Assembly: GCF_030463535.1 (NCBI RefSeq) | Contig: NC_132901.1 | Location: forward strand, 772,980 to 836,979 | DNA from: Salminus brasiliensis | Lineage: Eukaryota > Chordata > Actinopteri > Characiformes > Bryconidae | Direction of reading: 5' to 3' | DNA length: 64,000 nucleotides | Shown: piece after piece, positions 6,011 to 61,318 of the stretch | Numbering within the stretch: the stretch's first letter is position 1 | Layout: each line of letters opens with the position of its first letter | Made by a program: the position numbers and the translations under genes | The notes under the pieces: generated by a model | The model's database searches: none | What the model was told of the DNA's origin: nothing | Seen by the model: the letters and a program-made list of their open reading frames with translations, nothing else

Positions 6011-8222
6011 CAGAATATCCCTAGCTATTGGTTCTAATGTAAGGTCTGACTGCAGCGTTTTCCACTAGAGCTCTTGGGGTCACTTGGTCCAGAAGCTCCA
6101 ATGCAGTTCTGAATGTCGGACAGATTCTGCTTTGAATGTCAAATGTATTTTAAAGTGTTATTCGCTAAGATTTAAATGCAATGCTAATGCTAATTTATAT
6201 CCTTTTCCATTGGGAATACTTTGCACAAGTTAGCTCATTTTATTAGCGTAAACTGACTTTTTGGAACAGGGAGTTGGGAGAGGAATGCAGAGTTCTGCTT
6301 TAATGCACATAAGAAAAAGTTACAGAAAGCTGCTTTAAGGTATCTAAAGTAAAAGTCAGAATTGCACCAGGAAGCAGTCAGGGTGCAAAATGCATTGTTC
6401 TAGAGCAATGACTGTAGAGAACATGGACGCCGTGGCTCTGTCCCCTTCTGTTCTGTAGAAATAAAGCCAGAATTGTCCGCTATGTTGTCAAATCTGCAAC
6501 CAGACTCTGTGCAAAAGAGACCAGAGGCGGAGCCAGAGTCGCCAACTCATTTGGAAGCCCTGCCCCCTTCTTCCAGACCAAGCCTCAGTGTCTCAGACCG
6601 TCTTCATTGAGCTTCCAGTGCAGAAGCAGAGCGGTTTCCCCCCTGGGTTCCCAGTTTGTCCGTTCGGTAAGTGGACGCTCCTCCATGTAATGACCAGAGA
6701 GGACGCCATGCAGGTCCACCATGCAGAGGACCGGCCTCTTCCAGCCAGGGCTGCCAGCCAATTGCTTAATTGCTAAGTGTAGCCCCACATTGTTACGATA
6801 GAGCAGAGTAAGAGGTTGAAAATGGGCCGATATCAGCATTTGGGAACACTGGAGATGAAAGACAATTTAGAGGAGGAAGATGAGATGGAAAAATGGGTGT
6901 GGCTATTTGTCATTGAAACATATGGGGGTGGGAGGAGCTCCAAATCATACTGCAACCAGCCAGCAGAGGCGCTAGACCTGTGGTTGCTTCACTTCTGAGA
7001 GATACTGCGCTGTCCATGTTTTCTACAGTCATGGTTCTAGAGTGGGTTCTCCACAAATTCTGTTGCTTTCTAAAGGCCTACTCACACTAGCGTTTATCAA
7101 AAATCCAATAACAAGTTTGTGAGCGAAATTACATCCACTTCAGATTGTGGTTCGCAATTTGGCTTGTTTGCTACCAACCAGCTCGGACAGTTTCTTCATT
7201 CTTACTACAGAATTGCTAACTTTAGCTAACATGCTAATTCACTGCAAAATTTCAGACTCGACAAAAGTGCTAGTTTTGTAATTAGACGTAAAAACTGTAA
7301 GCAGAAATGGGCGCAATTCTGTGAGAACTGAATTACACAACCGAATTCAGAGCGTGAGCTAATAGCACGACTGCTTTAGCTAAGTTGACTTCTGAAGGGC
7401 GGGGCTTTGTTAAGCAGCGCTTAATTTGACACAGCAATCAGAGGTGGTGTGGAGCTGAATTAGACGATTAGATGTTAGATGTTTACTTTTTTTTTTTTTA
7501 ACTCTTTATGGTTGGCGAGTTAACATGTTAAGTGACTGCAAACTGCCCCTAAATGAAGCATTTTTTAATTTGTTATCCTGCTTTTCCGATCTCACTTTTT
7601 TGATCAAGCGTAATTTTGTGGATGTCTAGTGTGACTGCAGCCCAACTGTGGACACGTTCAAATAATTGTCCTGATTTGTGAAAGCTTAGTTTAGTGATCT
7701 GTACTTTGTGTGAAGACCTCCTGTCAAAATGATGGTCTCTCAACCTGAAGAATTATAAACTTAAATGTTGGTGAAATTGTTACTTTAATTTTTTTTTAAG
7801 TACGTTTGCAGAAATTACATTTTGTTTGACCACTTTGTTGATTCTAACTTTAGTTACACTAAAATGTAGGTGTTTCCTTCTCCTGGAACATTACTAGTTT
7901 GTAGATACGAGGTTTTGTTTTGACGGTGAAAAGGTAACTTTAGCACAGTCAAGCCAAGCTGGTCAGTTGAAGTGTTTTGTAACTTTGCACTTTTTTTATT
8001 TTCACTTTTATTTTTACTCAGCTCAGCTCTTCATGTCCAAGTAACTGCACTCTGTCCCCTCTTGGTTTTTCAACACGATTGTCTAGCTAGTTATAAACTC
8101 CACACACATGTAGCTCATAGTGAAAGCTAATTCTCAAGCTCATTAGTCAGAATGTGTCGTTGCAGATTTTGAATATTTGTTTTGCATTTTGTGACTGAAA
8201 CCATATTTGTGCTGTCAGGTTA

Positions 8223-8542
8223 CAGCAGCTGTCAAATGTTTGGACTCTGGATCTGACTGAATGTATGTTTTTTCTCGTACAGAAATTATTAACCGAAAAC
8301 GTAATATTGAAATGCTTGACGTTTGTTTCTGGGAAGAATCTAAAATAGGATCTAACTATATCTATACTATACGTATTTGGTAGCTTTGATGTGTATATTA
8401 TCAGATAGATAGATAGGCTATGTGCATTTTATATAATTAGTTATCTAGAACAGTAAGAAATTTGGGGTCACTGTGGAAAATGGTAAAAAGACAGAAAAAA
8501 CTCTTAGTTGAGTAGGTGAGTCCAAACTTTTGACCAGTGCTG
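8223..8542. mobile_element. Tc1/mariner-type MITE, about 320 bp, TA-flanked
   Basis: The left terminus CAGCAGCTGTCAAATGTTTG and the right terminus CAAACTTTTGACCAGTGCTG are imperfect inverted repeats of about 25 bp. TA dinucleotides flank both ends (8221-8222 and 8543-8544), as expected for Tc1/mariner target duplications. No transposase is coded. It sits just before the inferred tspan5 polyA signal. Confidence 0.7.
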
Positions 8543-8828
8543 TAAACAACACTGCTTCACTCACAGTTCACCTTTAAGATTCTTTTCACCATACAGCCAA
8601 TGAGAATAAAGGAATCTGACTGGCATATAAAAACCACGGGTCGACCCAATCAGATTCATTATTTTAGCACTTGTTAAGCTTCTGAACAGGGTTCTGAACA
8701 GTATTAACGACTGTAGTGTGTTGATGTTGTTGCCGTGGTTTGTTTGATTATCACAGTCTTTTTACAGTATTGTATTTGACAAACATAAACTATTGGCCAT
8801 CTTTCCCGGAGATGGAGGTGTTGTAAAC

Positions 8829-9019: not shown

Positions 9020-9935
9020 TAGTCAGGTGTAATTCACTTTAATATTCACATAAAATTCACTTTTATATTTAAGTGTAATTCACGATTATATTCAAACACA
9101 AGATGCATTTTTATAAGTAGTGGAAATTCACTTTTATAAATAGTTGAAATTCACTTTTTTTTACGGAACTAAAATTCACTTTTATTCTGAACTGAAATTC
9201 ACTTTTATAAATAGTTGAAATTCACTTTTTTTTACGGAACTAAAATTCACTTTTATTCTGAACTGAAATTCACTTTTATAAGTAGTTGAAATTCACTTTT
9301 TTTACGGAACTAAAATTCACTTTTATGCTGAACTGAAATTCACTTTTATAAATAGTTGAAATTCACTTTTTTTTTACAGAACTAAAATTCATTTTTATAC
9401 TGAACTGAAATTCACTTTTATAAATAGTTGAAATTCACTTTTTTTTACGGAACTAAAATTCACTTTTATGCTGAACTGAAATTCACTTTTATAAATAGTT
9501 GAAATTCACTTTTTTTTACAGAACTAAAATTCATTTTTATACTGAACTGAAATTCACTTTTATAAATAATTGAAATTCACTTTTTTTTACAGAACTAAAA
9601 TTCATTTTTATACTGAACTGAAATTCACTTTTATAAATAGTTGAAATTCACTTTTTTTTACAGAACTAAAATTCATTTTTATACTGAACTGAAATTCACT
9701 TTTATAAATAGTTGAAATTCACTTTTTTTTACGGAACTAAAATTCACTTTTATGCTGAACTGAAATTCACTTTTATAAATAGTTGAAATTCACTTTTTTT
9801 TACAGAACTAAAATTCATTTTTATACTGAACTGAAATTCACTTTTATAAATAGTTGAAATTCACTTTTTTACGGAACAGAAATTCATTAAAATTCACCTT
9901 TTGATTCAGGACTAAATTCACATTTATTTGACCAA
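9020..9935. repeat. 71-bp satellite/minisatellite, about 11 units
   Basis: The unit holds two sub-blocks, AAATTCACTTTTATAAATAG and GAACTAAAATTCACTTTTAT. The TTATTCTGAACTG block recurs at 71-bp spacing (for example 9182 and 9253). Two variant classes alternate: TACGGAACT followed by TTATGCTG, and TACAGAACT followed by TTATACTG. The array decays at both edges into single AATTCACTTT motifs. Confidence 0.93.
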
Positions 9936-10826: not shown

Positions 10827-11298
10827 TCTGTATGGAAATAAAACTAGGTTTCAGGGTTGTGTCCACCTTCGGGCGCTGATGGGAATGAAACCTTGGGAAG
10901 TAAATCACCTTAAGTGCACTTGATTACACAACCCCCTCCCGCCTGGGGAAGCAGCATGGGTAATCTAGGCGGATTAGGAGCCGCTGTGTATCCTTAATCC
11001 CACCACGATTAAAATAGGATTAAATCTCATCTCCTGGCCACAGCATGACATCCACTCCTCACCGCTAGAACACTTCGCCTCCTCTCAGCCCTCCCACCTG
11101 CCCGCCTGTCTGCCGGCGCAGGAATGGTCGCTGTCTCAGCATTCTCTCACCACCTTGTCCCCATCCCACCCACCGAGTCTCACTTCGGTCAGCAGTACTC
11201 GCTCTCTAGTGTGATCACTCTCCGCAACATCAGGAGGATCAATCATTCTCTAAGATGCAGATCACTCCGTAACAACCACCCTGTAACCATCACTTCGT
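10827..11298. other. Unique intergenic DNA with a cluster of GGATTA sites
   Basis: No gene is seen. GGATTA occurs at 10971-10976 and 11017-11022 and TAATCC at 10995-11000, which are homeodomain (Otx/Crx) core sites packed within 52 bp in non-repetitive sequence. Confidence 0.4.
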
Positions 11299-13386
11299 AT
11301 TAGAGCTTCATACTGGATATTAATGTTACAAGAGATTCATACTGGATATGAATGCTATTAGAGCTTCATACTGGATATTAATGCTATTAGAGCTTCATAC
11401 TGGATATTAATGCTATTAGAGCTTCATACTGGATATTATTGTTATTAGAGCTTCATACTGGATATTAATGTTATTAGAGCTTCATACTGGATATTAATGA
11501 TATTAGAGCTTCATACTGGATATTAATGTTATTAGAGTTTCATACTGGATATTAATGTTATTAGAGCTTCATACTGGATATTAATGATAGAACTTCATAC
11601 TGGATATTAATGTTATTAGAGCTTCATACTGGATATTAATGTTATTAGAGCTTCATACTGGATATTAATGTTACAAGAGATTCATACTGGATATGAATGC
11701 TATTAGAGCTTCATACTGGATATTAATGCTATTAGAGCTTCATACTGGATATTAATGCTATTAGAGCTTCATACTGGATATTATTGTTATTAGAGCTTCA
11801 TACTGGATATTAATGTTATTAGAGCTTCATACTGGATATTAATGATATTAGAGCTTCATACTGGATATTAATGTTATTAGAGTTTCATACTGGATATTAA
11901 TGTTATTAGAGCTTCATACTGGATATTAATGATAGAACTTCATACTGGATATTAATGTTATTAGAGCTTCATACTGGATATTAATGTTATTAGAGCTTCA
12001 TACTGGATATTAATGTTAGAACTTCATACTGGATATTAATGATATTAGAGCTTCATACTGGATATTAATGTTAGAACTTCATACTGGATATTAATGTTAT
12101 TAGAGCTTCATACTGGATATTAATGTTAGAACTTCATACTGGATATTAATGATATTAGAGCTTCATACTGGATATTAATGTTATTAGAACTTCATACTGG
12201 ATATTCATATTATTAGAGCTTCATACTGGATATTAATGTTATTAGAACTTCATACTGGATATTAATGTTATTAGAGCTTCATACTGGATATCAATGTTAC
12301 TAGAGCTTCATACTGGATATTAAAGTTATTAGAGCTTCATACTGGATATTAATGTTATTAGAGCTTCATACTGGATATTAATGTTAGAACTTCATACTGG
12401 ATATTAATGATATTAGAGCTTCATACTGGATATTAAAGTTATTAGAACTTCATACTGGATATTAATGTTATTAGAACTTCATACTGGATATTAATGCTAT
12501 TAGAGCTTCATACTGGATATTAATGTTATTAGAGCTTCATACTGGATATTAATGTTAGAACTTCATACTGGATATTAATGATATTAGAGCTTCATACTGG
12601 ATATTAAAGTTATTAGAGCTTCATACTGGATATTAATGTTATTAGAACTTCATACTGGATATTAATGCTATTAGAGCTTCATACTGGATATTAAAGTTAT
12701 TAGAGCTTCATACTGGATATTAATGTTATTAGAGCTTCATACTGGATATTAATGTTAGAACTTCATACTGGATATTAATGATATTAGAGCTTCATACTGG
12801 ATATTAAAGTTATTAGAACTTCATACTGGATATTAATGTTATTAGAACTTCATACTGGATATTAATGCTATTAGAGCTTCATACTGGATATTAATGTTAT
12901 TAGAACTTCATATTGGATATTAATGCTATTAGAACTTCATACTGGATATTAATGTTATTAGAGCTTCATACTGGATATTACTGTTATTAGAGCTTCATAC
13001 TGGATATTAAAGTTATTAGAACTTCATACTGGATATTAATGTTATTAGAGCTTCATACTGGATATTAAAGTTATTAGAACTTCATACTGGATATTAATGT
13101 TATTAGAGCTTCATACTGGATATTAATGCTATTAGAACTTCATACTGGATATTAAAGTTATTAGAGCTTCATACTGGATATTAATGTTATTAGAGCTTCA
13201 TACTGGATATTAATGTTATTAGAGCTTCATACTGGGTATTAATGTTATTAGAGTTTCATACTGGATATTAATGTTATTAGAGCTTCATACTGGATATTAA
13301 TGCTATTAGAACTTCATACTGGATATTAAAGTTATTAGAGCTTCACACTGGATATTAGTGTTATTAGAACTTCATACTGGATATGT
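11299..13386 (+). repeat. 29-bp minisatellite array A, about 2.1 kb
   Basis: The unit is TTAGAGCTTCATACTGGATA followed by TTAATGTTA (29 bp). Variants include short units lacking TATT, AGAACTT for AGAGCTT, and TTAAAG for TTAATG. A 345-bp block is itself duplicated: the rare variant TTACAAGAGATTCATACTGG occurs at 11326 and 11671 with the same following series of variants. There are about 70 units. Confidence 0.97.
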
Positions 13387-35100: not shown

Positions 35101-36586
35101 TACGTCACGCAACCCTGCCTGCAGTCTGGCTAGCCTGGAACTGTAAAAGCCTCTTAGCTAACCTCATTTGATAAATCTAACTGGTTTGTTTGGGGTGCAA
35201 TGATTTCTATACAGTATCAGTAAATCTAGCATTTCCCATTCACGTTCAAGACTAAGCATTTTGCATTGTTTTGAGACGGGATAGGATTTACACTGGGTCC
35301 TGAGGAATCATTTTTCATAGGGGATACAGAAAATTACAAGCTGAATTCTCCTTTTGTTTGTGTATGTACTGAGTGTACTGAGCACTGTTGTGGTTTACCC
35401 TGCAGGTTGGTGAGACCATAGGCATCACAGAGGAGATCATGGGGCTGACCATCCTGGCTGCTGGAACCTCCATTCCTGATCTCATCACCTCAGTCATTGT
35501 GGCCAGAAAGGGTCTGGGGGACATGGCTGTTTCCAGCTCTGTGGGCTCCAACATCTTTGACATCACTGTGGGGTATGACATCACTCCTCCTCATCCTTCT
35601 CCTGTTCAACAGAAGTTCAACATTAATATCCAGTATGAAGTTCTAATAACATTAATATCCAGTATGAAGCTCTAATAGCATTAATATCCAGTATGAAGTT
35701 CTAATAACATTAATATCCAGTATGAAGCTCTAATAGCATTAATATCCAGTATGAAGTTCTAATAACATTAATATCCAGTATGAAGCTCTAATAGCATTAA
35801 TATCCAGTATGAAGCACTAATAACATTAATATCCAGTATGAAGCTCTAATAACATTAATATCCAGTATGAAGCTCTAATAGCATTAATATCCAGTATGAA
35901 GCTCTAATAACATTAATATCCAGTATGAAGCTCTAATAACATTAATATCCAGTATGAAGTTCTAATAACATTAATATCCAGTATGAAGCTCTAATAACAT
36001 TAATATCCAGTATGAAGCTCTAATATCATTAATATCCAGTATGAAGTTCTAATAACATTAATATCCAGTATGAAGTTCTAATAGCATTAATATCCAGTAT
36101 GAAGCACTAATAACATTAATATCCAGTATGAAGCTCTAATAACATTAATATCCAGTATGAAGCTCTAATAACATTAATATCCAGTATTAAGTTCTAATAC
36201 AATTATTATGAAGAATGAAGGTGGTCCTATTACTCAATACCACTATTGACATCAATATTACAAGTGTTTCCAAACTTTTGAACAGTACTGAATCCTGAAG
36301 GAACTGCTCACTGACCAGTGTCCTTTCTCTCCTCAGCTTGCCGTTTCCGTGGCTCCTGTATTCGTTGCTCCACGACATGAAGTCCGTCGTGGTCAGCAGT
36401 AATGGCCTTTTCTGCGCCATCGTGCTGCTCTTCCTCATGCTCCTCTTCGTCATCATGTCCATCGCCGTTTGCAAGTGGAGGATGAGCAAGCTGCTCGGCT
36501 TCCTCATGTTCATGCTCTACTTCGTCTTCCTGGTGGTCAGCGTCATGCTGGAGGACAAGGTCATCACCTGCCCCATTTCCGTCTGA
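20110..36586 (+). CDS. slc24a2: Na/Ca-K exchanger 2 (NCKX2), nine coding exons
   Basis: Exons 20110-20982, 32147-32182, 32685-32793, 33007-33081, 33174-33247, 33711-33848, 34182-34271, 35406-35572 and 36337-36586 join in frame to 603 aa (human NCKX2 is 661). The family exchanges 4 Na+ for 1 Ca2+ plus 1 K+ across the plasma membrane of neurons and cone photoreceptors. Seen: an N-terminal hydrophobic segment, the first exchanger half with alpha-1 repeat [17 protein letters not shown] (about residues 160-176), a cytosolic loop with [20 protein letters not shown] and an acidic [13 protein letters not shown] patch, then the second half with alpha-2 repeat [17 protein letters not shown] (about 478-494). 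The key acidic residues in SAPE and SIPD are intact. The start is the first ATG of an exon whose acceptor lies at 19964, with 5'UTR 19965-20109. The 17-residue optional loop exon of mammalian NCKX2 is not found between 32793 and 33007, so this gene matches the short form. It could be either teleost paralogue. Confidence 0.96.
21040..21100 (+). repeat. Four tandem 15-bp units
   Basis: GCTGGTTCCCGGTCC repeats with small changes just inside the large slc24a2 intron. Confidence 0.85.
21359..21572 (+). mobile_element. tRNA-derived SINE copy in slc24a2 intron
   Basis: It starts with GGGTGGCTCAGCGATGTACA and continues through CATCAGCAGCCAGAGTCCCA, GGCTGTCTGGCAATGCCGCA and GGTGGTGGCTGGACTCATAT to TCCTAGTGTCGGGAGCATTT. 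Related diverged copies lie at 22349 and 32255. Confidence 0.65.
22349..22580 (+). mobile_element. Diverged SINE copy in slc24a2 intron
   Basis: It has the same order of blocks as the copy at 21359: GTGGTCCAGTGGACCAAGGC, CATCAGCAGCCG, GCGATGGCTACCTAGCAATG and GAGGCAGTGGCTAGCTTCAC. Confidence 0.55.
22581..26180. other. slc24a2 intron, no gene or exon seen
   Basis: Short frames in both strands carry no recognised domain. An element-like string TCTGAATACTTATGAACCCC at 24462 resembles a DNA-transposon end, but no partner end was found. Confidence 0.4.
26270..26620. mobile_element. Foldback-type element with long inverted arms
   Basis: The left arm about 26270-26335 (GATGATGATGAGGGTAAAAT, AGAGAATCTCAACTAATG) is inverted as the right arm about 26519-26620 (GAGATTCTCCACTATTTTAC, then CATCATCATCATC). 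The interior (GCAGGTTCTAGAGCCGAACT, GTCTCAGGCATCAGGCAGCG) recurs at 31230-31560. Confidence 0.7.
26945..27120 (+). repeat. Dispersed repeat (ACTGGAGCTATGAGGCTAAT family)
   Basis: Related stretches start near 30295, 34020 and 44733. Each starts with GGAGCTACGAGGCTAATGTA-like sequence and continues with TTAGCATG/GATGCTAAC and TGGTTTCTGAC-like blocks. Confidence 0.5.
27125..27498 (+). mobile_element. MITE-like repeat, copy 4, both termini present
   Basis: Ends are GACAAAAGTATTGGGACACC (left) and GTGTCCACAAATATGTGGAC (right). The interior matches the copy at 10480, and this is one of the most complete copies. Confidence 0.78.
28375..28715 (-). mobile_element. Deleted Tc1-like remnant in slc24a2 intron
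   Basis: It begins with CAGCCATAACATTAGCATAA and has CGAGGCATGGACTCCACAAG, GCAGCAGATCCTTAAAGTCC and CCGGTTCACCGGTTGTCCTT, all blocks of the complement of the same Tc1 family as at 1189. The centre of the transposase is missing. Confidence 0.8.
28716..30290. other. slc24a2 intron, nothing recognised
   Basis: AT-rich unique DNA without exon-like frames. Confidence 0.4.
30721..30732 (+). repeat. Poly-G run of 12
   Basis: A G homopolymer occurs within AT-rich intron DNA. Confidence 0.85.
31230..31570 (+). mobile_element. Second copy of the foldback-type element, one arm only
   Basis: It shares CACTCTGATTTCTTTACAGT, the (GATG)n/GATGATG block, GTAAAATAGTGAATAGAGAA and GGCATCAGGCAGCGTCTTCA with 26185-26520. 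The right arm present at 26519-26620 is absent here. Confidence 0.7.
32255..32440 (+). mobile_element. SINE-like copy after slc24a2 exon 2
   Basis: GGCTCAGCGGCCTAATGCTC, GCAATCAGCAGCCGGAGTCT and GTCAGAGCGTTGTTAACACT fit the diverged SINE family at 21359. Confidence 0.5.
32931..32948 (+). promoter_or_regulatory. CTCF-like motif in slc24a2 intron
   Basis: CCAGAGGGGGCGCTGCAG closely matches the known CTCF core. It lies between the exons ending at 32793 and starting at 33007. Binding is inferred. Confidence 0.5.
33288..33650 (+). mobile_element. Tc1 fragment joined to MITE-like repeat, copy 5
   Basis: 33288-33345 (GCATTCATGTGGATTGCCAG, CACCTATTCATGGCAATAGC) resembles a piece of a Tc1 transposase gene. 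From 33350 the MITE blocks CCAAAAGTACTGGATGGAGC and CTCTAGCCCACGCCTGGCAT follow, ending at AGAAGGGGTTTC without the GTGTCCACAAAC terminus. Confidence 0.6.
35615..36200 (-). repeat. 29-bp minisatellite array B, inverted, in last slc24a2 intron
   Basis: It is the reverse complement of the array A unit (TAACATTAATATCCAGTATG, AAGCTCTAA), about 20 units. It begins about 40 bp after the donor at 35573. About 65 bp after its end, CCAAACTTTTGAACAGTACT (36270) matches the terminus of the transposon at 38033-38806. Confidence 0.95.
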
Positions 36587-37040: not shown

Positions 37041-38032
37041 TGTTACACACTGAACGTAAAAACTGACGATAAGGGTGGGCGACGCGACGACGAAGCACTG
37101 GCTTGGCTTTGTCAGCGTACGGGTCACGTTTGAACGCTTCATTCCTGTGTATACTGTATCATTTTAACATGGCAAACCTTAGTGCCATTTAGACCTAGCG
37201 TTCAGACTTCTATAGCTACGGCGTTCCGCTAATCCGTCCAAGTCGTGGATTTGTTAAAAACGTATACTGAATATAATCTAACAAAGTTAAGCTTATCCTT
37301 TGTAACCAACTGTGCAACATTTTATATGTTGTTTCCTTTGCAATGACTGTCCAATGAAAGGGCTGTCATTTGCCAAGGTCTGAGGGGCGGGGCGTCCGCT
37401 TCCTTTCTCTAACTATCAAGGTTCGTTAGTTTGAAGAAAACCAAATGCACCGTTTCTCCCCCTCAACCGACATGGATTTGATCAGATAAGATAGGTTTGG
37501 TGCCCTAGAGATATAAGGAATGGTATTAGCCAATGAGCTTGATGCCTCAGCCTGCATGGAGTAGTGCAGCAATCATATTTACCCAATCTTTTCGGCCTAT
37601 GTGGTTCCTGGCGCAGCCAACAGACTCTCAACAGATACAGGTCATTTATGGCATATGTGGCACCTAGAATCGGACGAAGTCATCACTGTCGTTCAAAAGC
37701 AGCGACATATTTGCTTATTTAAGAAAAAAAAAAGTTCATCTTTACCAGGTGAAGAATATATAAATGCATATTCACATGTTCATTCTTATATTCCTATATG
37801 TTCTGTAGTAACGTATGAATATGTATCAATCTCAAATGTCTTAACTCTACATTTTTACAATGTTAAAACTGTCTGAAATCGGACGTTTAATCAAACTTCA
37901 GGCACCGGCCACGTCTTGGCTGATCAGCTCCGTTTAGGGTAAGAGGGGTGAAAAGGAGTAAATATGAATTTTCTTCAAACTATTTCTTTATGAACTAAGG
38001 CTCCTAGTACACTCCTGACTTTAATGCACATA

Positions 38033-38806
38033 CACTACTGTTCAAAAGCTTGGAATCACGTTATATATTCGCAATTATGACTTTTTAGGAACAATCTGGA
38101 GGTCAATTATGCACCAAACTGTGTTTTTTAATTATCTTCGATTCTGTTCTGAAGTGATAGAAAATATACTGAAATTATGGAATTATATCACACATGTTCA
38201 GTCCTTTAATTGCCTTACAAATTTAACCTCCACTCCACTGACATCCTGGATAATAATTTTATTGGTACACACTGGATATTAATGTTATTAGAACTTCAAT
38301 CCAGATGTTGATTTTATTGATATTATTCATTTAACTTATTCCGGACCTTAATTTTACTAGAACGTAATTCTGGATATTAACGTTATTAGAGCTTTATTCC
38401 AGATATTAATGTTATCAGAACTTAAATACATGGATGGTGATTCTATTAAAACTTAGTCTGGGCCAGAATTTTACTAGAATGTCAGTCTGGATATTAATTT
38501 TACTAGAACTTCATTCTGCATAATAATGTTATTAGAGATACAATCCAGATGTTGATTTTATTATTTATGAACCAGAATTTTACAAGAACTTCATACTGGA
38601 TATTAATGTTATTAGAGCTTCATTTTCGAATAATCTAGTTTCAGACTCTTAGATTTTTTCTAAAATCGACAGCCTCCCACAGATGATCTGAAAGCAGTGA
38701 CGTTACACAGGACTGACGGTATGGTCGTTTCATACAGTGGTATAACGCAACCAGACTGATTCTTACATTATCTAAAACAGTGATTCCAAACTTTTGAGCG
38801 GTAGCG
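38033..38806. mobile_element. Tc1/mariner-type non-autonomous element with internal 29-bp repeats
   Basis: The left terminus CACTACTGTTCAAAAGCTTG (38033-38059 in full) and the right terminus CAAACTTTTGAGCGGTAGCG (38780-38806 in full) are 27-bp imperfect inverted repeats. TA lies directly outside both ends (38031-38032, 38807-38808). Inside are about ten degenerate versions of the 29-bp unit, such as CTGGATATTAATGTTATTAG at 38273 and CTTCATACTGGATATTAATG at 38589. No transposase is seen. Confidence 0.8.
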
Positions 38807-39059
38807 TACATAACGAGCCGCACTTCCTCTACAACTGGTTGAGTGTGTGTGTGTGTGTGAGGTCAGGTACTGGCATGGTATCTTTAGATCCAATCCAGGA
38901 TTCAGAAGATCACTCTTTCTGCTGTTCAGAATTCAAAGACCAAACACAGACTGGACGGCTGATCCAATCACAGCCTTCATGAGCTTCTACTGTCTAATTT
39001 CACTCTTTCTCTCAGACACATGCTCTTCCTTCCCGTCCGTCATTTTTATATGTACGATA

Positions 39060-39545: not shown

Positions 39546-41968
39546 GACTTTATTAGAGCTTCATACTGGATATTAATGCTATTAGAACTTCATACTGGAT
39601 ATTAATGTTATTAGAGCTTCATACTGGATATGAATGTAATTAGAGCTTCATACTGGATATGAATGCTATTAGAGCTTCATACTGGATATTAATGGTATTA
39701 GAGCTTCATACTGGATATTAATGTTATTAGAACTTCATACTGGATATTAATGATATTAGAGCTTCATACTGGATATTAATGTTATTAGAACTTCATGCTG
39801 GATATTAATGTTTTAGAGCTTCATACTGGATATTAATGTTATTAGAGCTTCATACTGGATATTAATGTTATTAGAGCTTCATACTGGATATTAATGTTAT
39901 TAGAACCTCATGCTGGATATTAATGTTTTAGAGCTTCATACTGGATATTAATGTTATTAGAGCTTCATACTGGATATTAATGTTATTAGAACCTCATGCT
40001 GGATATTAATGTTTTAGAGCTTCATACTGGATATTAATGTTATTAGAACCTCATGCTGGATATTAATGTTATAGAGCTTCATACTGGATATTAATGTTAT
40101 TAGAGCTTCATACTGGATATTAATGTTATTAGAACCTCATGCTGGATATTAATGTTTTAGAGCTTCATACTGGATATTAATGTTATTAGAACCTCATGCT
40201 GGATATTAATGTTTTAGAGCTTCATACTGGATATTAATGTTATTAGAACTTCATACTGGATATGAATGCTATTAGAGCTTCATACTGGATATGAATGCTA
40301 TTAGAGATTCATACTGGATATGAATGCTATTAGAGCTTCATACTGGATATGAATGTTATTAGAACTTCATACTGGATATTAATGTTATTAGAGCTTCATA
40401 CTGGATATGAATGTAATTAGAGCTTCATACTGGATATGAATGTAATTAGAGCTTCATACTGGATATGAATGCTATTAGAGCTTCATACTGGATATTAATG
40501 GTATTAGAGCTTCATACTGGATATTAATGTTATTAGAACTTCATACTGGATATTAATGTTATTAGAGCTTCATACTGGATATTAATGTTATTAGAGCTTC
40601 ATACTGGATATTAATATTATTAGAACTTCATACTGGATATTAATGTTATTAGAACTTCATACTGGATATTAATGATATTAGAGCTTCATACTGGGTATTA
40701 ATGTTATTAGAACTTCATACTGGATATTAATGTTATTAGAGCTTCATACTGGATATGAATGTAATTAGAGCTTCATACTGGATATTAATGCCATTAGAGC
40801 TTCATACTGGATATTAATGCCATTAGAACTTCATACTGGATATTAATGCCATTAGAACTTCATACTGGATATTAATGTTATTAGAACTTCATACTGGATA
40901 TTAATGATATTAGAGCTTCATACTGGATATTAATGTTATTAGAACTTCATACTGGATATTAATGCCATTAGAACTTCATACTGGATATTAATGTTATTAG
41001 AACTTCATACTGGATATTAATGATATTAGAGCTTCATACTGGGTATTAATGTTATTAGAACTTCATACTGGATATTAATGTTATTAGAGCTTCATACTGG
41101 ATATTAATGTTATTAGAGCTTCATACTGGATATGAATGTAATTAGAGCTTCATACTGGATATGAATGCCATTAGAACTTCATACTGGATATTAATGTTAT
41201 TAGAACTTCATACTGGATATTAACGTAATTAGAGCTTCATACTGGATATTAACGTAATTAGAGCTTCATACTGGATATTAACGTAATTAGAACTTCATAC
41301 TGGATATTAATGATATTAGAGCTTCATACTGGGTATTAATGTTATTAGAACTTCATACTGGATATTAATGTTATTAGAGCTTCATACTGGATATGAATGT
41401 AATTAGAGCTTCATACTGGATATTAATGCCATTAGAGCTTCATACTGGATATTAATGCCATTAGAACTTCATACTGGATATTAATGCCATTAGAACTTCA
41501 TACTGGATATTAATGTTATTAGAACTTCATACTGGATATTAATGATATTAGAGCTTCATACTGGGTATTAATGTTATTAGAACTTCATACTGGATATTAA
41601 TGCCATTAGAACTTCATACTGGATATTAATGTTATTAGAACTTCATACTGGATATTAATGATATTAGAGCTTCATACTGGGTATTAATGTTATTAGAACT
41701 TCATACTGGATATTAATGTTATTAGAGCTTCATACTGGATATTAATGTTATTAGAGCTTCATACTGGATATGAATGTAATTAGAGCTTCATACTGGATAT
41801 GAATGCCATTAGAACTTCATACTGGATATGAATGCCATTAGAACTTCATACTGGATATTAATGTTATTAGAACTTCATACTGGATATTAACGTAATTAGA
41901 GCTTCATACTGGATATTAACGTAATTAGAGCTTCATACTGGATATTAATGTAATTAGAGCTTCATACT
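39546..41968 (+). repeat. 29-bp minisatellite array C, about 2.4 kb
   Basis: It has the same unit and orientation as array A, about 80 units. Variant blocks recur: CTTCATACTGGGTATTAATG at about 40684, 41031, 41313, 41551 and 41658, and the truncated AATGTTTTAGAGC unit at 39810-40215. This shows higher-order duplication. Confidence 0.97.
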
Positions 41969-48705: not shown

Positions 48706-50605
48706 GCCCCGGTTATGGAGCCAGACTATCTGATGTGTGAGGAATGTTCAAGACCGTTCATGGATTCCTATCTCAGCAACAGCTTTGACCTATCTGTGTG
48801 TGACAAATGCAGGTAACACACACACACACACTCTCTCTCACACACTCTCTCTCTCTCACACACACACACTCTCTCTCTCTCTCTCACACACTGTGTTTTC
48901 TGTGTCAGTTGGTGGGTTATGCTCTGATGGAGTTTATCTCTGGGTTGATCAGTAAGCTGATCTGTGCAGCTGCACTCTGTGTGTGTTTGTGTCTGTATGT
49001 GTGTGTGTGAGAGAGTGTGTGTGTGTGAGAGAGTGTGTGTGTGTGAGAGAGTGTGTGTGTGTGAGAGAGTGTGTGTGTGTGAGAGAGTGTGTGTGTGAGA
49101 GAGTGCGTGTGTGTGAGTGTGTGTGTGTGTGTTCCATTTCACTAAACCCTAGTAAACAGTTATTACTGTATCTGTGACACCATATACATATAATTACACT
49201 ACAGTTAAACTACACAGATTACAGATGGATGGTATAGATGGGTACAGGGTATAGATGGGTACAGGGTATAGATGGGTACAGGGTATAGATGGGTATAGGG
49301 TATAGTGTATAGATGGATATAGTGTATAGATGGTTATAGAGTATAGATGGTTATAGGGTATAGATGGATATAGGGTATAGATAAACATGGGTATATGGTA
49401 TAGATGGGTGTAGAGTATGGATAAGTTTAACTAGGTATAGATGGATATAGGGTATATATGGTTATAGGGTGTAGATGGCTATAGACATGTATAGGGTATA
49501 GATATAGATGGGTATAGGGTCTATATGGGTATAGGGTCTATAGGGGTATAGGGTATAGATGGGTATAGGGTATAGATGGGTATAGGGTATAGATATAGAT
49601 GGGTATAGGGTATAGATGGGTATAGGGTATAGATGGGTATAGGGTATAGATGGGTATAGGTATAGATGGGTATAGGGTATAGATGGGTATAGATATAGAT
49701 GGGTATAGGGTATAGATGGGTATAGGGTATAGATGGGTATAGATATAGATGGGTATAGGGTATAGATGGGTATAGGGTATAGATGGGTATAGATATAGAT
49801 GGGTATAGGGTATAGATGGGTATAGGTATAGATGGGTATAGGGTATAGATGGGTATAGGGTATAGATGGGTATATATATAGATGGGTATAGGGTATAGAT
49901 GGGTATAGATATAGATGGGTATAGGGTATAGATGGGTATAGGGTATAGATGGGTATAGATATAGATGGGTATAGGGTATAGATGGGTATAGGGTATAGAT
50001 GGGTATAGGGTATAGATGGGTATAGGGTATAGATGAGTATAGGGTATAGATGGGTATAGGGTATAGATGGGTATAGGGTATAGATGGGTATAGATATAGA
50101 TGGGTATAGGGTATAGATGGGTATAGGGTATAGATGGGTATAGATATAGATGGGTATAGGGTATAGATGGGTATAGGGTATAGATGGGTATAGATATTAT
50201 TGCAAAGTAACAGTAACTTTCTATGGAATCAGAAACTCTGGGTCTGGATCCACAGTTTCTCCACCAGTTCTCCTACAGCCTGATTCTGCTGTGAATTCTA
50301 ACCATCAAAATACTCCTAACCTCACAACTGCTCAACGTGTGTGTGTGTGTGTGTGTGTGTCTGTGTGTGTGTCTGTGTTAGAGATAATGAAGAGAAACAC
50401 CGGCTGATTTCTCGGACGGAGGCGAAGCAGCTGTTTTTACTGAAGGACTGCGATCTGGACCTGAGAGAACCTCCACTGCGCTTCGTCCTGAGGAAGAACC
50501 CTCACAACCCCCGCTGGGGGGACATGAAGCTCTACCTGAAAACTCAGGTGAACAGCCCTCACCTTAGAGCCGGAGTTAGGTTTTCATCTTGGGCCTGTAA
50601 GAGTG

Positions 50606-52454: not shown

Positions 52455-53255
52455 CTACTGGTACCAAACCAGTACCAAACCAGTATAACCCAGCGATTGT
52501 TGTGTTTTAAACACTGGTATGCTGGTCAACCAACACCAAACCAGTACCAAACCAGTATAACCCAGCGATTGTTGTGTTTCAAACACTGGTATGCTGGTCA
52601 ACCAACACCAAACCAGTACCAAACCAGTATAACCTAACAATTGTGTTACGAGTACTGGTATGCTAGTCAACTAACAACAAACCAGTACCAAACCAGTATA
52701 ACCCAGCGATTGTTGTGTTTTAAACACTGGTATGCTGGTCAACCAACACCAAACCAGTACCAAACCAGTATAACCCAGCGATTGTTGTGTTTTGGACACT
52801 GGTATGCTGGTCAACCCACACCAAACCAGTACCAAACCAGTATAACCCAACATTTGTTGTGTTTTGAACACTGGTATGCTGGTCAACCAACAACAAACCA
52901 GTACCAAACCAGTATAACCTAACAATTGTGTTACGAGTACTGGTATGCTAGTCAACTAACAACAAACCAGTACCAAACCAGTATAACCCAGCGATTGTTG
53001 TGTTTTGGACACTGGTATGCTGGTCAACCCACACCAAACCAGTACCAAACCAGTATAACCCAGCGATTGTTGTGTTTTGAACACTGGTATGCTGGTCAAC
53101 CCACACCAAACCAGTACCAAACCAGTATAACCCAACATTTGTTGTGTTTTGAACACTGGTATGCTGGTCAACCCACACCAAACCAGTACCAAACCAGTAT
53201 AACCTAACAATTGTGTTATGAGTACTGGTATGCTGGTCAACCAACACCAAACCAA
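52455..53255. repeat. 72-bp minisatellite, about 11 units
   Basis: The unit contains AACCAGTATAACCCAGCGAT, TGTTGTGTTTTGAACACTGG and TATGCTGGTCAACCAACACC. TATAACC recurs at 52484 and 52556. A variant (AACCTAACAATTGTGTTACG) recurs every fourth unit or so (52632, 52917, 53202), showing a higher-order block of about 285 bp. Frames on both strands come from the period being a multiple of three. Confidence 0.95.
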
Positions 53256-53781: not shown

Positions 53782-55408
53782 GCCGAGTCTTGATGCTCTG
53801 GGTCTGAGTCGAGTCTTGATGCTCTGGGTCTGAGTCGAGTCTTGATGCTCTGGGTCTGAGTCGAGTCTTGATGCTCTGGGTAAGAGTCTGGGTCGAGTCT
53901 TGATGCTCTGGGTAAAAGTCTGGGTCGAGTCTTGATGCTCTGGGTAAGAGTCTGAGTCGAGTCTTGATGCTCTGGGTAAGAGTCTGGGTCGAGTCTTGAT
54001 GCTCTGGGTAAAAGTCTGAGTCGAGTCTTGATGCTCTGGGTAAGAGTCTGAGTCGAGTCTTGATGCTCTGGGTAAAAGTCTGGGTCGAGTCTTGATGCTC
54101 TGGGTAAGAGTCTGAGTCGAGTCTTGATGCTCTGGGTAAGAGTCTGGGTCGAGTCTTGATGCTCTGGGTAAGAGTCTGGGTCGAGTCTTGATGCTCTGGG
54201 TAAAAGTCTGGGTCGAGTCTTGATGCTCTGGGTAAAAGTCTGGGTCGAGTCTTGATGCTCTGGGTAAAAGTCTGGGTCGAGTCTTGATGCTCTGGGTAAG
54301 AGTCTGGGTCGAGTCTTGATGCTCTGGGTAAGAGTCTGAGTCGAGTCTTGATGCTCTGGGTAAGAGTCTGGGTCGAGTCTTGATGCTCTGGGTAAAAGTC
54401 TGGGTCGAGTCTTGATGCTCTGGGTAAAAGTCTGGGTCGAGTCTTGATGCTCTGGGTAAAAGTCTGAGTCGAGTCTTGATGCTCTGGGTAAGAGTCTGAG
54501 TCGAGTCTTGATGCTCTGGGTAAGAGTCTGGGTCGAGTCTTGATGCTCTGGGTAAGAGTCTGAGTCGAGTGTTGATGCTCTGGGTAAAAGTCTGGGTCGA
54601 GTCTTGATGCTCTGGGTAAGAGTCTGGGTCGAGTCTTGATGCTCTGGGTAAAAGTCTGGGTCGAGTCTTGATGCTCTGGGTAAAAGTCTGGGTCGAGTCT
54701 TGATGCTCTGGGTAAGAGTCTGGGACGAGTCTTGATGCTCTGGGTAAGAGTCTGAGTCGAGTCTTGATGCTCTGGGTAAGAGTCTGGGTCGAGTCTTGAT
54801 GCTCTGGGTAAAAGTCTGGGTCGAGTCTTGATGCTCTGGGTAAAAGTCTGGGTCGAGTCTTGATGCTCTGGGTAAGAGTCTGAGTCGAGTCTTGATGCTC
54901 TGGGTAAGAGTCTGAGTCGAGTCTTGATGCTCTGGGTAAAAGTCTGGGTCGAGTCTTGATGCTCTGGGTAAGAGTCTGGGTCGAGTCTTGATGCTCTGGG
55001 TAAGAGTCTGAGTCGAGTCTTGATGCTCTGGGTAAGAGTCTGGGTCGAGTCTTGATGCTCTGGGTAAGAGTCTGGGTCGAGTCTTGATGCTCTGGGTAAG
55101 AGTCTGGGTCGAGTCTTGATGCTCTGGGTAAAAGTCTGGGTCGAGTCTTGATGCTCTGGGTAAGAGTCTGGGTCGAGTCTTGATGCTCTGGGTAAGAGTC
55201 TGAGTCGAGTCTTGATGCTCTGGGTAAGAGTCTGGGTCGAGTCTTGATGCTCTGGGTAAGAGTCTGAGCTGAGTCTTGATGCTCTGGGTAAGAGTCTGAG
55301 TCGAGTCTTGATGCTCTGGGTAAAAGTCTGGGTCGAGTCTTGATGCTCTGGGTAAAAGTCTGGGTCGAGTCTTGATGCTCTGGGTAAGAGTCTGAGTCGA
55401 GTCTTGAT
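53782..55408. repeat. 32-bp minisatellite, about 51 units
   Basis: The unit is GAGTCTTGATGCTCTGGGTA followed by AGAGTCTGAGTC, with AAGAG/AAAAG and GAGTC/GGGTC variants. The first three units are shorter. Because 32 bp is not a multiple of three, the minus frame cycles through all phases every 96 bp without a stop, giving a 609-aa open frame with a 32-residue period. I treat it as spurious. Confidence 0.96.
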
Positions 55409-55837: not shown

Positions 55838-56275
55838 TAGATTCATAGTGGATACTGAATAATTCATAGTAGATATTAAATAATTTGCAGTAGATACTGA
55901 ATAATTCATAGTGGATACTAAACAATTCAGAGTGGATATCAAATCATTCATAGTAGATATTGAATAATTCATAGTGGATACTGAATAATTTGCAGTAGAT
56001 ACTGAATAATTCATAGTGGATACTAAACAATTCAGAGTGGATATCAAATCATTCATAGTAGATATTGAATAATTCATAGTGGATACTGAATAATTCATAG
56101 TAGATACTGAATAATTCAGAGTGGATATCAAATCATTCATAGTAGATATTGAATAATTCATAGTAGATACTGAATAATTCATAGTGGATAATAAATCATT
56201 CATAATGGATCCTGAATAATTCATAGTGGATACTGAATAATTAATAGCAGATATTGAATAATTCATAGGTTATGC
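55838..56275. repeat. 21-bp minisatellite, about 20 units
   Basis: The unit is ATTCATAGTGGATACTGAATA with variants (TTGCAG, TTCAGAG, ATCAAATC). A block of about 124 bp (AGTAGATACTGAATAATTCA then GGATACTAAACAATTCAGAG) is duplicated at 55891 and 56015. The 145-aa minus frame follows from the 21-bp period. Confidence 0.93.
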
Positions 56276-56279
56276 TGAA

Positions 56280-57020
56280 TAATCTGTAATCGTTTTCCCC
56301 AGTTTTTTAAGAGAGATATGTTTAATAACTGTGGTTGCAAAGTTCACATTATTTTAATATAAACTATGTAAATAATTGCGAGTTTATTTAAAGTATTTTA
56401 TTATTTTGTAATGTAATCATGCATGAGACTGCATTTGGAAGAGACACCGAAGGAACTCTAGGAGTTATCTGACGTAGCTGGATTTCTCCATTAGCCAGCT
56501 AACTTTAGCCCAGGGTCAGGTCTGTGCAGCAGGAAGACAGATTTGCAGCATTAGCCCTGAAAACTCTCTTTTTGGGCTTAAATGATCCAGCTTAATGAGA
56601 AATCCCGTCTCAGGCTCCGGTGTCTCCGTGATGTTTGACCCGAAGCTGAATTTACCCCGGTTGACTGTGCATGTGGTAATGTGTTCTGCGCTGCGCTCTG
56701 GAGCTGGATGAGGTGATTAATGGTTCTTCTGATTTGCCACCTGCTGTTTTATAGAGCTCTGCTACACGTAACTGATCTCAGGGCGCTTGCGTGCGAGGGC
56801 GTCCTCATTTTAAATAGCCCTCTAAATTTAACCCCTTTGTGAAGCTCCTGTCCAGCCCGGACAGCCTCGATTCAGGACGTTAAACAGGATGATTTTCACC
56901 CATGAGCTGAATCAGTGGGGTCCTGAGGTGGATTCACAGCTCTCCCTGTCTGCAGGGGGCGCTGAGCAGGACATGGATAAAAATACATTCTGTACGGCTG
57001 GAAAATAGCTCTCAAATTCA
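56280..57020. other. Unique intergenic DNA with a CTCF-like motif
   Basis: No gene is seen. CTGCAGGGGGCGCTGA at 56950-56965 is a good CTCF core match. Confidence 0.4.
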
Positions 57021-57034
57021 GATCATGGTTAAAG

Positions 57035-58150
57035 TCTTGAGTCTCGAGTCTTTAGGGTGTAGGGTCTGAGTGAAGTCTCGAATATCTGGAGTGTAAGTCT
57101 GAGTCGAATCTGTGGACTGTCCAATCTCTGGGGTATGAGTCTGATTTGAGTCTTTAGTTTTTATGGTGTGAGTCTAAGTCAAGTCTCGAATCTGTGATGT
57201 GGGTCTGAGTCAAGTCTCGGATATCTGTGATGTGAGTCTGAGTCAAATCTCGAATCTTTGTGATGTGAGTCTGAGTCAAGTCTTGAATCTGTGATGTGAG
57301 TCTGAGTCAAGTCTCGAATCTCTGTGATGTGAGTCTGAGTCAAGTCTCAAAGCTCAGTGATGTGGGTCTTAGACAAGTCTTGAGCCTCTACAGTGCGAGT
57401 CTGAGTCAAGTCTCGAATCTCTGTGATGTGAGTCTGAGTCAAGTCTCGAGCCTCTATAGTGTGAGTCTGATCTAAATCCCAAGTCTCTGGGGTGCGAGTC
57501 TGAGTCAAGTCTCAAATCTCTGTGATGTGAATCTGAGTCAAGTCTTGAATCTGTGATGTGGGTCTGAGTCAAGTCTCGGATCTGTGATGTGAGTCTGAGT
57601 CAAGTCTCGAATCTCTGTGATGTGAGTCTGAGTCAAGTCTCGAATCTCTGTGATGTGAGTCTGAGTCAAGTCTCAAAGCTCAGTGATGTGGGTCTTAGAC
57701 AAGTCTTGAGCCTCTACAGTGCGAGTCTGAGTCAAGTCTCGAATCTCTGTGATGTGAGTCTGAGTCAAGTCTCGAGCCTCTATAGTGTGAGTCTGATCTA
57801 AATCCCAAGTCTCTGGGGTGCGAGTCTGAGTCAAGTCTCAAATCTCTGTGATGTGAATCTGAGTCAAGTCTTGAATCTGTGATGTGGGTCTGAGTCAAGT
57901 CTCGGATCTGTGATGTGAGTCTGAGTCAAGTCTCGAATCTCTGTGATGTGAGTCTAAGTCAAGTTTCGAATCTCTGTGATGTGAATCTGAGTCAAGTCTC
58001 AAAGCTCAGTGATGTGGGTCTTAGACAAGTCTTGAGCCTCTACAGTGTGAGTCTGATCGGAGTCCCAAGTCTCTGGGGTGCAAGTCTGAGTCAAGTCTCG
58101 AGTCTCTTGGGTACAGGTCATAGTTTTTATGGCGTGAGTCTGGACGGAGA
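57035..58150. repeat. 33-bp minisatellite with a 326-bp higher-order repeat
   Basis: The basic unit is GTGAGTCTGAGTCAAGTCTC followed by GAATCTCTGTGAT. A block starting near 57295 is repeated with near identity 326 bp downstream (57621) and a third time in shortened form (about 57947-58070). The unit shares GAGTCTGAGTCRAGTCT with the 32-bp array at 53782-55408. Confidence 0.93.
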
Positions 58151-60304: not shown

Positions 60305-61318
60305 AATTAGAGTCAGTGGTCAGTAAGAGTGTCTACCTGTAATTAATTCTATATAACATTAGAATAAACCCAAATAAACATAAGGTCAGTTATCAGTGAG
60401 AGTGTCTACCTGTAATTAACTCTATATAACATTAGAATAAACCCAAATAAACATAAAGTCAGTGGTCAGTGAGAGCGTCTACCTGTAATTAACTCTATAT
60501 AACATTAGAATAAACCCAAATAAACATAAAGCCAGTGGTCAATGAGAGTGTATACCTGTAATTAACTCTATATAACATTAGAATAAACCCAAATAAACAT
60601 AAAGTCAGTATTCAGTGAAAGTGTCTACCTGTAATTAAATCTATATGACATTAGAATAAACCCAAATAAACATAAAGTCAGTGATCAGTGAGAGTGTCTA
60701 CCTGTAATTAACTCTATATAACATTAGAATAAACCCAAATAAACATAAAGCCAGTGGTCAATGAGAGTGTATACCTGTAATTAACTCTATATAACATTAG
60801 AATAAACCCAAATAAACATAAAGTCAGTATTCAGTGAAAGTGTCTACCTGTAATTAAATCTATATGACATTAGAATAAACCCAAATAAACATAAAGCCAG
60901 TGGTCAGTGAGAGTGTCTACCTGTAATTAACTCTATATAACATTAGAATAAACCCCAATAAACATAAAGTCAGCGGTCAGTGAGAGCGTCTACCTGTAAT
61001 TGACTCTATATAACATTAGAATAAACCCAAATAAACATAAAGTCAGCGGTCAGTGAGAGCGTCTACCTGTAATTGACTCTATATAACATTAGAATAAACC
61101 CAAATAAACATAAAGTCAGCGGTCAGTGAGAGCGTCTACCTGTAATTGACTCTATATAACATTAGAATAAACCCAAATAAACATAAAGTCAGTGGTCAGT
61201 GAGAGTGTCTACCTGTAATTAACTCTATATAACATTAGAATAAACCCAGATAAACATAAAGTCAGTGGTCAGTGAGAGTGTCTACCTGTAATTAACTCTA
61301 TATAACATTAGAATAAAG
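60305..61318. repeat. 73-bp minisatellite, about 14 units
   Basis: The unit contains GTCAGTGAGAGTGTCTACCT, GTAATTAACTCTATATAACA and TTAGAATAAACCCAAATAAA. Units fall into subtypes (ATTCAGTGAAAGTG, GTCAATGAGAGTGTATACC, GCGGTCAGTGAGAGCG) that recur as pairs or triplets, so blocks have duplicated together. Confidence 0.96.

Follow-up and report, generated by a model that had tools for sequence, protein, structure and literature searches.

A TA-flanked element and arrays of a 29-bp unit

The window, as the whole 64,000-nt stretch analyzed here is called, covers positions 772980 to 836979 of contig C28 in the 1.07-Gb, 103-contig genome of Salminus brasiliensis. Its forward strand carries an element of 774 bp between two flanking TA dinucleotides (window positions 38031 to 38808, TAs included). 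The left terminal inverted repeat (TIR) is 27 bp in length, CACTACTGTTCAAAAGCTTGGAATCAC (38033 to 38059, forward strand), with one mismatch to the terminus of the family described below, and the right TIR of the same length, GTGATTCCAAACTTTTGAGCGGTAGCG (38780 to 38806, reverse strand), has three. The two TIRs agree at 23 of 27 positions, and the arms including the TA are 86% complementary (25 of 29 nt). Degenerate copies of a 29-bp unit are found in the interior (38236 to 38625, forward strand), where repeat comparison matched a 47-nt reference nine times at 60% identity or more. The unit score of the element was 48, against a maximum of 18 for its shuffles, and the eight units extracted from it share a mean identity of 0.71; none were seen in its outer parts. 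The 774-bp length, the 27-bp inverted ends, the TA outside them and the diverged 29-bp units had all been listed in a preliminary description of the window, and all were recovered. Judged by its ends, the element would be a decayed, nonautonomous, TA-inserting transposon of Tc1/mariner-like type, which forms part of the overall explanation, set out below, that we consider probable.

Using the element's own end segments as queries, in a search that skips very common words, no close full-length relative was found in the genome. Besides itself, the left 200 bp had one match (45 bp) and the right 173 bp had two (53 and 31 bp), all of them at the terminus, and 31 bp of the right end are identical to locus L011 on C12. 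Elsewhere in the window, a 324-bp stretch (8221 to 8544) has TA and related inverted ends (TACAGCAGCTGTCAAATGTTTGGACTC and GAGTCCAAACTTTTGACCAGTGCTGTA) and is perhaps a short sister element.

Genome-wide, the 29-bp unit occurs at least 23,032 times at three mismatches or fewer, amounting to approximately 0.67 Mb, with no occurrence of the reversed control; estimated from this number of units, the arrays in the genome may run to hundreds. Three of them lie in the window. Arrays A (11298 to 13384, forward strand; flank scores of 7 and 7) and C (39550 to 41968, forward strand; 6 and 7) were identified by repeat finding, and no facing terminus was found within 300 bp of either. Array B (35619 to 36220, reverse strand; approximately 21 copies by TRF) has a facing terminus at 36264 to 36292 (reverse strand), which scores 23, was also recovered by a genome-wide pattern search, differs from the consensus at three positions and has AA, not TA, outside it. 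The other side of array B scores 10, which is at control level. A matching terminus near this array had been proposed at a distance of 65 bp; the facing terminus is there, and the distance varies with the array boundary chosen, being 43 bp from the TRF end. The window, which is approximately 0.8 Mb from a contig end, holds seven other minisatellite arrays whose units are 17 bp or longer (9123 to 9886, 49231 to 50193, 52463 to 53254, 53802 to 55408, 55841 to 56283, 57165 to 58107 and 60311 to 61317).

The terminus family and its array-free copies

The terminus consensus has at least 367 matches in the genome at three mismatches or fewer and none for the reversed control; it therefore represents the end of a repeat family. 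Termini of this type are common in fishes. Among the 100 termini listed, two are at arrays that were also listed, those of the window element and of locus L041.

Eight of the nine copies with a perfect terminus were read inward, for about 900 bases each (700 for L052). A lack of 29-bp units in most copies with these termini had been set as an outcome that would refute the carrier proposal, and the copies read show it: the unit was absent from all eight, and none of them scores above its own shuffles, L056 equaling the best of them on the opposite strand (18.0). The family as a whole therefore did not have the unit from the start. A second terminus lay within the stretch read in two of the eight, and the two-ended copies among the array-free ones are L052, L055 and L011. 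The perfect-terminus copies and loci L010, L011 and L013 resemble one another only near their ends, over up to about 150 bp and at 66 to 71% identity, which is read as the mark of an old family with decayed interiors. As a genome query, L011 found two short matches besides itself and no close full-length relative.

Facing termini and a shared junction motif

To the arrays of the window were added 37 further array places, picked by hand among the matches listed of 221, with only the best candidates scored; the choice was made by similarity, so that arrays with a very different consensus may be missed. Counting runs of 200 bp or more, this gave 48 arrays, among them multiple runs from a single locus (L019, L035, L038 and L039), both ends of one long array (L018 and L051) and the units of the window element itself. 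The 300-bp flanks of each were scored against the terminus, 93 in number, as 3 of 96 were missing at locus ends. A terminus facing the array scored 13 or more in 11 of the 93 flanks, at 8 of the 48 arrays, whereas no wrong-facing terminus reached this score in any of the 93 (maximum, 12.5); the reversed controls reached 13.0 once, which is the control maximum. No facing terminus with a score of 13 or more was found at the other 40 arrays, A and C included.

Facing termini were found at both ends of the units or array in the window element (27 and 23), L041 (18 and 28) and L023 (17 and 23). All three have TA outside both ends, and in L041 and L023 a repeat array is enclosed within both ends of an element. 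One clear end was found at array B and at L047 (16; the other side scores 12, at control level), and the termini at L027 (14), L020 (13.5) and L019 (13) are borderline, barely passing the control maximum. A match in the left flank of L038 (score of 12) resembles by eye another terminus type and was not counted. With the window left out, two termini at three mismatches or fewer lay beside 44 arrays, against 0.009 expected (P = 4e-5).

Exact patterns consisting of one unit core and one terminus core were also run over the whole genome. A facing terminus core was found to the right of a unit core at two places at a distance of 30 to 91 bp and at nine places at 91 to 151 bp, and to the left at two places at 30 to 91 bp, the union being 11 places: two on C1, of which one is at 3.33 Mb, one each on C2, C4, C9 (L047), C11, C14, C25 and C28 (array B), and two on C29 that lie 7 kb apart. 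The wrong-facing pattern, run for the right side only at both distances, was found nowhere in the genome, and the reversed controls gave no match in any of the five pattern runs. The DNA was read at three of the 11 places (L023, L047 and array B), the other eight being coordinates that do not imply a long array. Neither L041 nor the window element is caught by these patterns, and 11 is therefore a minimum, though still few compared with the number of arrays. Elements with these ends enclose units and arrays far more often than expected by chance. Terminus-like sequences as common as these (at least 367 in the genome) might merely happen to adjoin units, an explanation that we consider extremely improbable given the 11 facing places against none wrong-facing or reversed and the number of termini seen beside arrays outside the window against that expected there.

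An all-against-all comparison of array flanks revealed that the right flanks of L014 and L039 match each other, the other matches being terminus matches, simple repeats and self-overlaps. The motif that these two arrays share at their junction, TTTCTCAGTCAGTTTAGAATCAGCTACAACTCTG, is also present at L038; it scores 70, 48 and 42 at the right flanks of these three arrays and 25 or less at the other 44 of 47 right flanks, the best reversed-strand score likewise being 25. A genome search placed the motif at four further sites, two of which were read (L060 and L061), the other two being at C13:23186023 and C20:959928. At L060 and L061, degenerate units directly precede the motif (p = 0.001, the lowest value that the test can give), and in L061 the units are by eye in the same phase at the motif as in L039.

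A profile of the motif also matched L011, an element with these termini and without an array. The match had an E value of 6.2e-6 over the array and terminus loci searched (best reversed control, 1.7) and 2.9e-7 over 16 terminus stretches (best reversed control, 0.079), and unit and motif scored jointly gave 58, where the Markov maximum was 39.5. Scored alone, however, the unit-like stretch next to the motif is weak (p = 0.025), and the element as a whole scores within its shuffles, which makes L011 a candidate, but no more, for the state with a single unit. Composite scoring gave p values of 0.013 for L013, 0.017 for L057 and 0.037 for L052, and values above 0.1 for L010, L053, L054, L055, L056, L058 and L059. 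No convincing match to the profile was obtained in the window element, in L041, L023 and L047 or in array B, and the evidence from termini and that from the motif therefore meet only in L011. At about positions 870 to 960 of L011, a different unit, around ACACAGGACAGATTTCTAGT, was seen by eye to form a short tandem stretch.

Several other motif matches were not counted. That of L025 lies at the array edge (E = 0.018) with a score of 25, equal to the best reversed-strand score, that of L041 scores 22, at control level, and that of L021 (E = 0.00049) is 2 kb from its array. The matches in L056 (E = 0.022) and L013 (E = 0.072) stand beside a best reversed control of 0.079.

Spread of the repeat

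The 29-bp repeat was probably spread with the help of a mobile element, because old units lie in an element and some arrays still lie inside its relatives. The explanation that we favor, and hold to be probable, is that one subfamily, a minority within an old Tc1/mariner-like MITE family, bore the unit and that the arrays expanded, for the most part close to contig ends, and outlived their carriers. The unit would have been held in the interior of this subfamily and dispersed by transposition, presumably through a Tc1/mariner transposase, and the seed would have preceded the array. In some copies it would then have decayed, as in the window element and, beside the shared junction motif, in L060 and L061; in L011 it may have stayed single; and in others slippage or unequal exchange would have multiplied it to tens of copies, mainly toward the ends of chromosomes. 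Decay of the element ends would then account for the termini missing from most arrays. The earlier proposal that a Tc1/mariner-type element spread the repeat is accordingly kept in narrower form: the facing termini (11 places against 0) speak for it, and the eight perfect-terminus copies without the unit speak against a role for the family at large.

Published systems offer parallels. Passages of PMC12628747 and PMC9659126 describe miDNA4 of Xenopus tropicalis, which they credit to Scalvenzi and Pollet (2014), as a Tc1/mariner MITE in which the repeat may be a single monomer or form an array, and in which accumulating mutations can erase the inverted ends of the longer arrays. Set against these passages, the S. 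brasiliensis element is similar in being a nonautonomous Tc1/mariner-type element with an interior repeat and in having an array within its ends at L041 and L023; it is unlike miDNA4 in its 29-bp unit, its host and the absence of the unit from the perfect-terminus copies read, and the likeness is one of description, not of sequence. By this analogy, the carrier mechanism would be the same as that published for miDNA4. The same two sources, in the passages concerned, report Xstir repeats on the Xmix MITE of Xenopus (Hikosaka and Kawahara 2004), with an origin from internal MITE sequence according to PMC12628747 and from the TIR according to a table of PMC9659126; the 29-bp repeat, for comparison, is internal to its element. 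The Tetris transposon of Drosophila virilis, which a passage of PMC4079207 describes as having provided the building blocks of a satellite, is likewise a transposon supplying satellite material, although it is a foldback element and hence of another kind. In one search of papers, the letters of the terminus and the unit had no match, a literature search for "29-bp repeat" with minisatellite and fish returned nothing, and the retrieved passages of PMC7599744 had no bearing on a transposon-borne repeat. The first statement, that no named description of the element family was known, agrees with the search for its letters, but a published account of the mechanism exists for miDNA4.

The element may have been the vehicle of the repeat and not its birthplace, having taken up an older, free 29-bp tandem repeat. 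Capture of a preexisting repeat was suggested for miDNA4 by Scalvenzi and Pollet, as reported in a passage of PMC12628747, and the lack of the unit in all eight perfect-terminus copies read is in keeping with it; the possible single unit in L011 would instead fit an origin from one copy, but that unit is weak (p = 0.025) and loss of units from an array would look alike. We regard such capture as quite possible while leaning somewhat against it, and it is compatible with the carrier part of the favored explanation.

The arrays are more alike than growth from separate old seeds would lead one to expect. Mean unit identity was 0.898 within arrays and 0.872 between arrays, and the consensus sequences of 42 of the 46 arrays compared (the other 2 of the 48 had too few units) either equal the canonical unit or depart from it at positions 8 and 15 alone. 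Extraction of a unit required a fit to the canonical one at 19 of 29 positions, and this favors uniformity; in our judgment, this cut and the choice of arrays inflate the uniformity but do not create it. A consensus this near to uniform, unlike the decayed flanks, does not fit independent growth from old seeds, and exchange between loci or later spread of arrays is therefore needed. The proposal that the arrays grew in place is thus incomplete, as, in addition, 40 of the 48 lack any facing terminus with a score of at least 13, and such exchange or spread must be added to it. An array of a clearly different unit variant, with seven consensus changes, is present in L035 (5316 to 6001) near two canonical arrays.

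Arrays are in excess toward the ends of contigs: of 40 array places, 23 lie within 3.5 Mb of such an end, against 16% expected, compared with 13 of 48 termini (Fisher p = 0.005), with neighboring arrays counted apart and contig ends taken for chromosome ends. Groups of arrays far from contig ends were seen on C1 (28.0 to 28.8 Mb), C3 (23.6 to 24.2 Mb) and C27 (24.1 to 25.4 Mb), and our guess is that they mark old fusion points or centromeres.

Uniformity, position and the many arrays without a facing terminus would also be explained if most arrays had moved as arrays, by extrachromosomal circles, break repair or exchange near chromosome ends, and only some had begun in elements or landed in them. 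The junction phase shows no signature of insertion of whole-unit circles, as the start and end phases agree in only 2 of 48 arrays, about the number given by chance, and the motif common to terminus-free arrays points to a carrier there too. Free dispersal of this kind is conceivable, but we think it rather doubtful as the main route. An extension of the favored carrier explanation, which we advance as speculation and think unlikely, is that after the death of the carriers the dispersed arrays stayed one pool, homogenized by exchange between loci, mainly near chromosome ends, with the carriers decayed beyond recognition. If this were true, one 29-bp consensus and two shared variant sites would have been kept at dozens of loci on many chromosomes, and dead transposon copies would be the anchor points of a minisatellite homogenized across the genome.

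Several stages of the passage from element to minisatellite appear to survive side by side in one genome, namely the element without the unit, perhaps with one unit, with degenerate units and with a long array, and finally the array without the element. The order of these events and the speed at which carriers are lost would become measurable once a related genome is compared, and a consensus common to loci with decayed flanks raises the question of how far arrays are exchanged between chromosomes.
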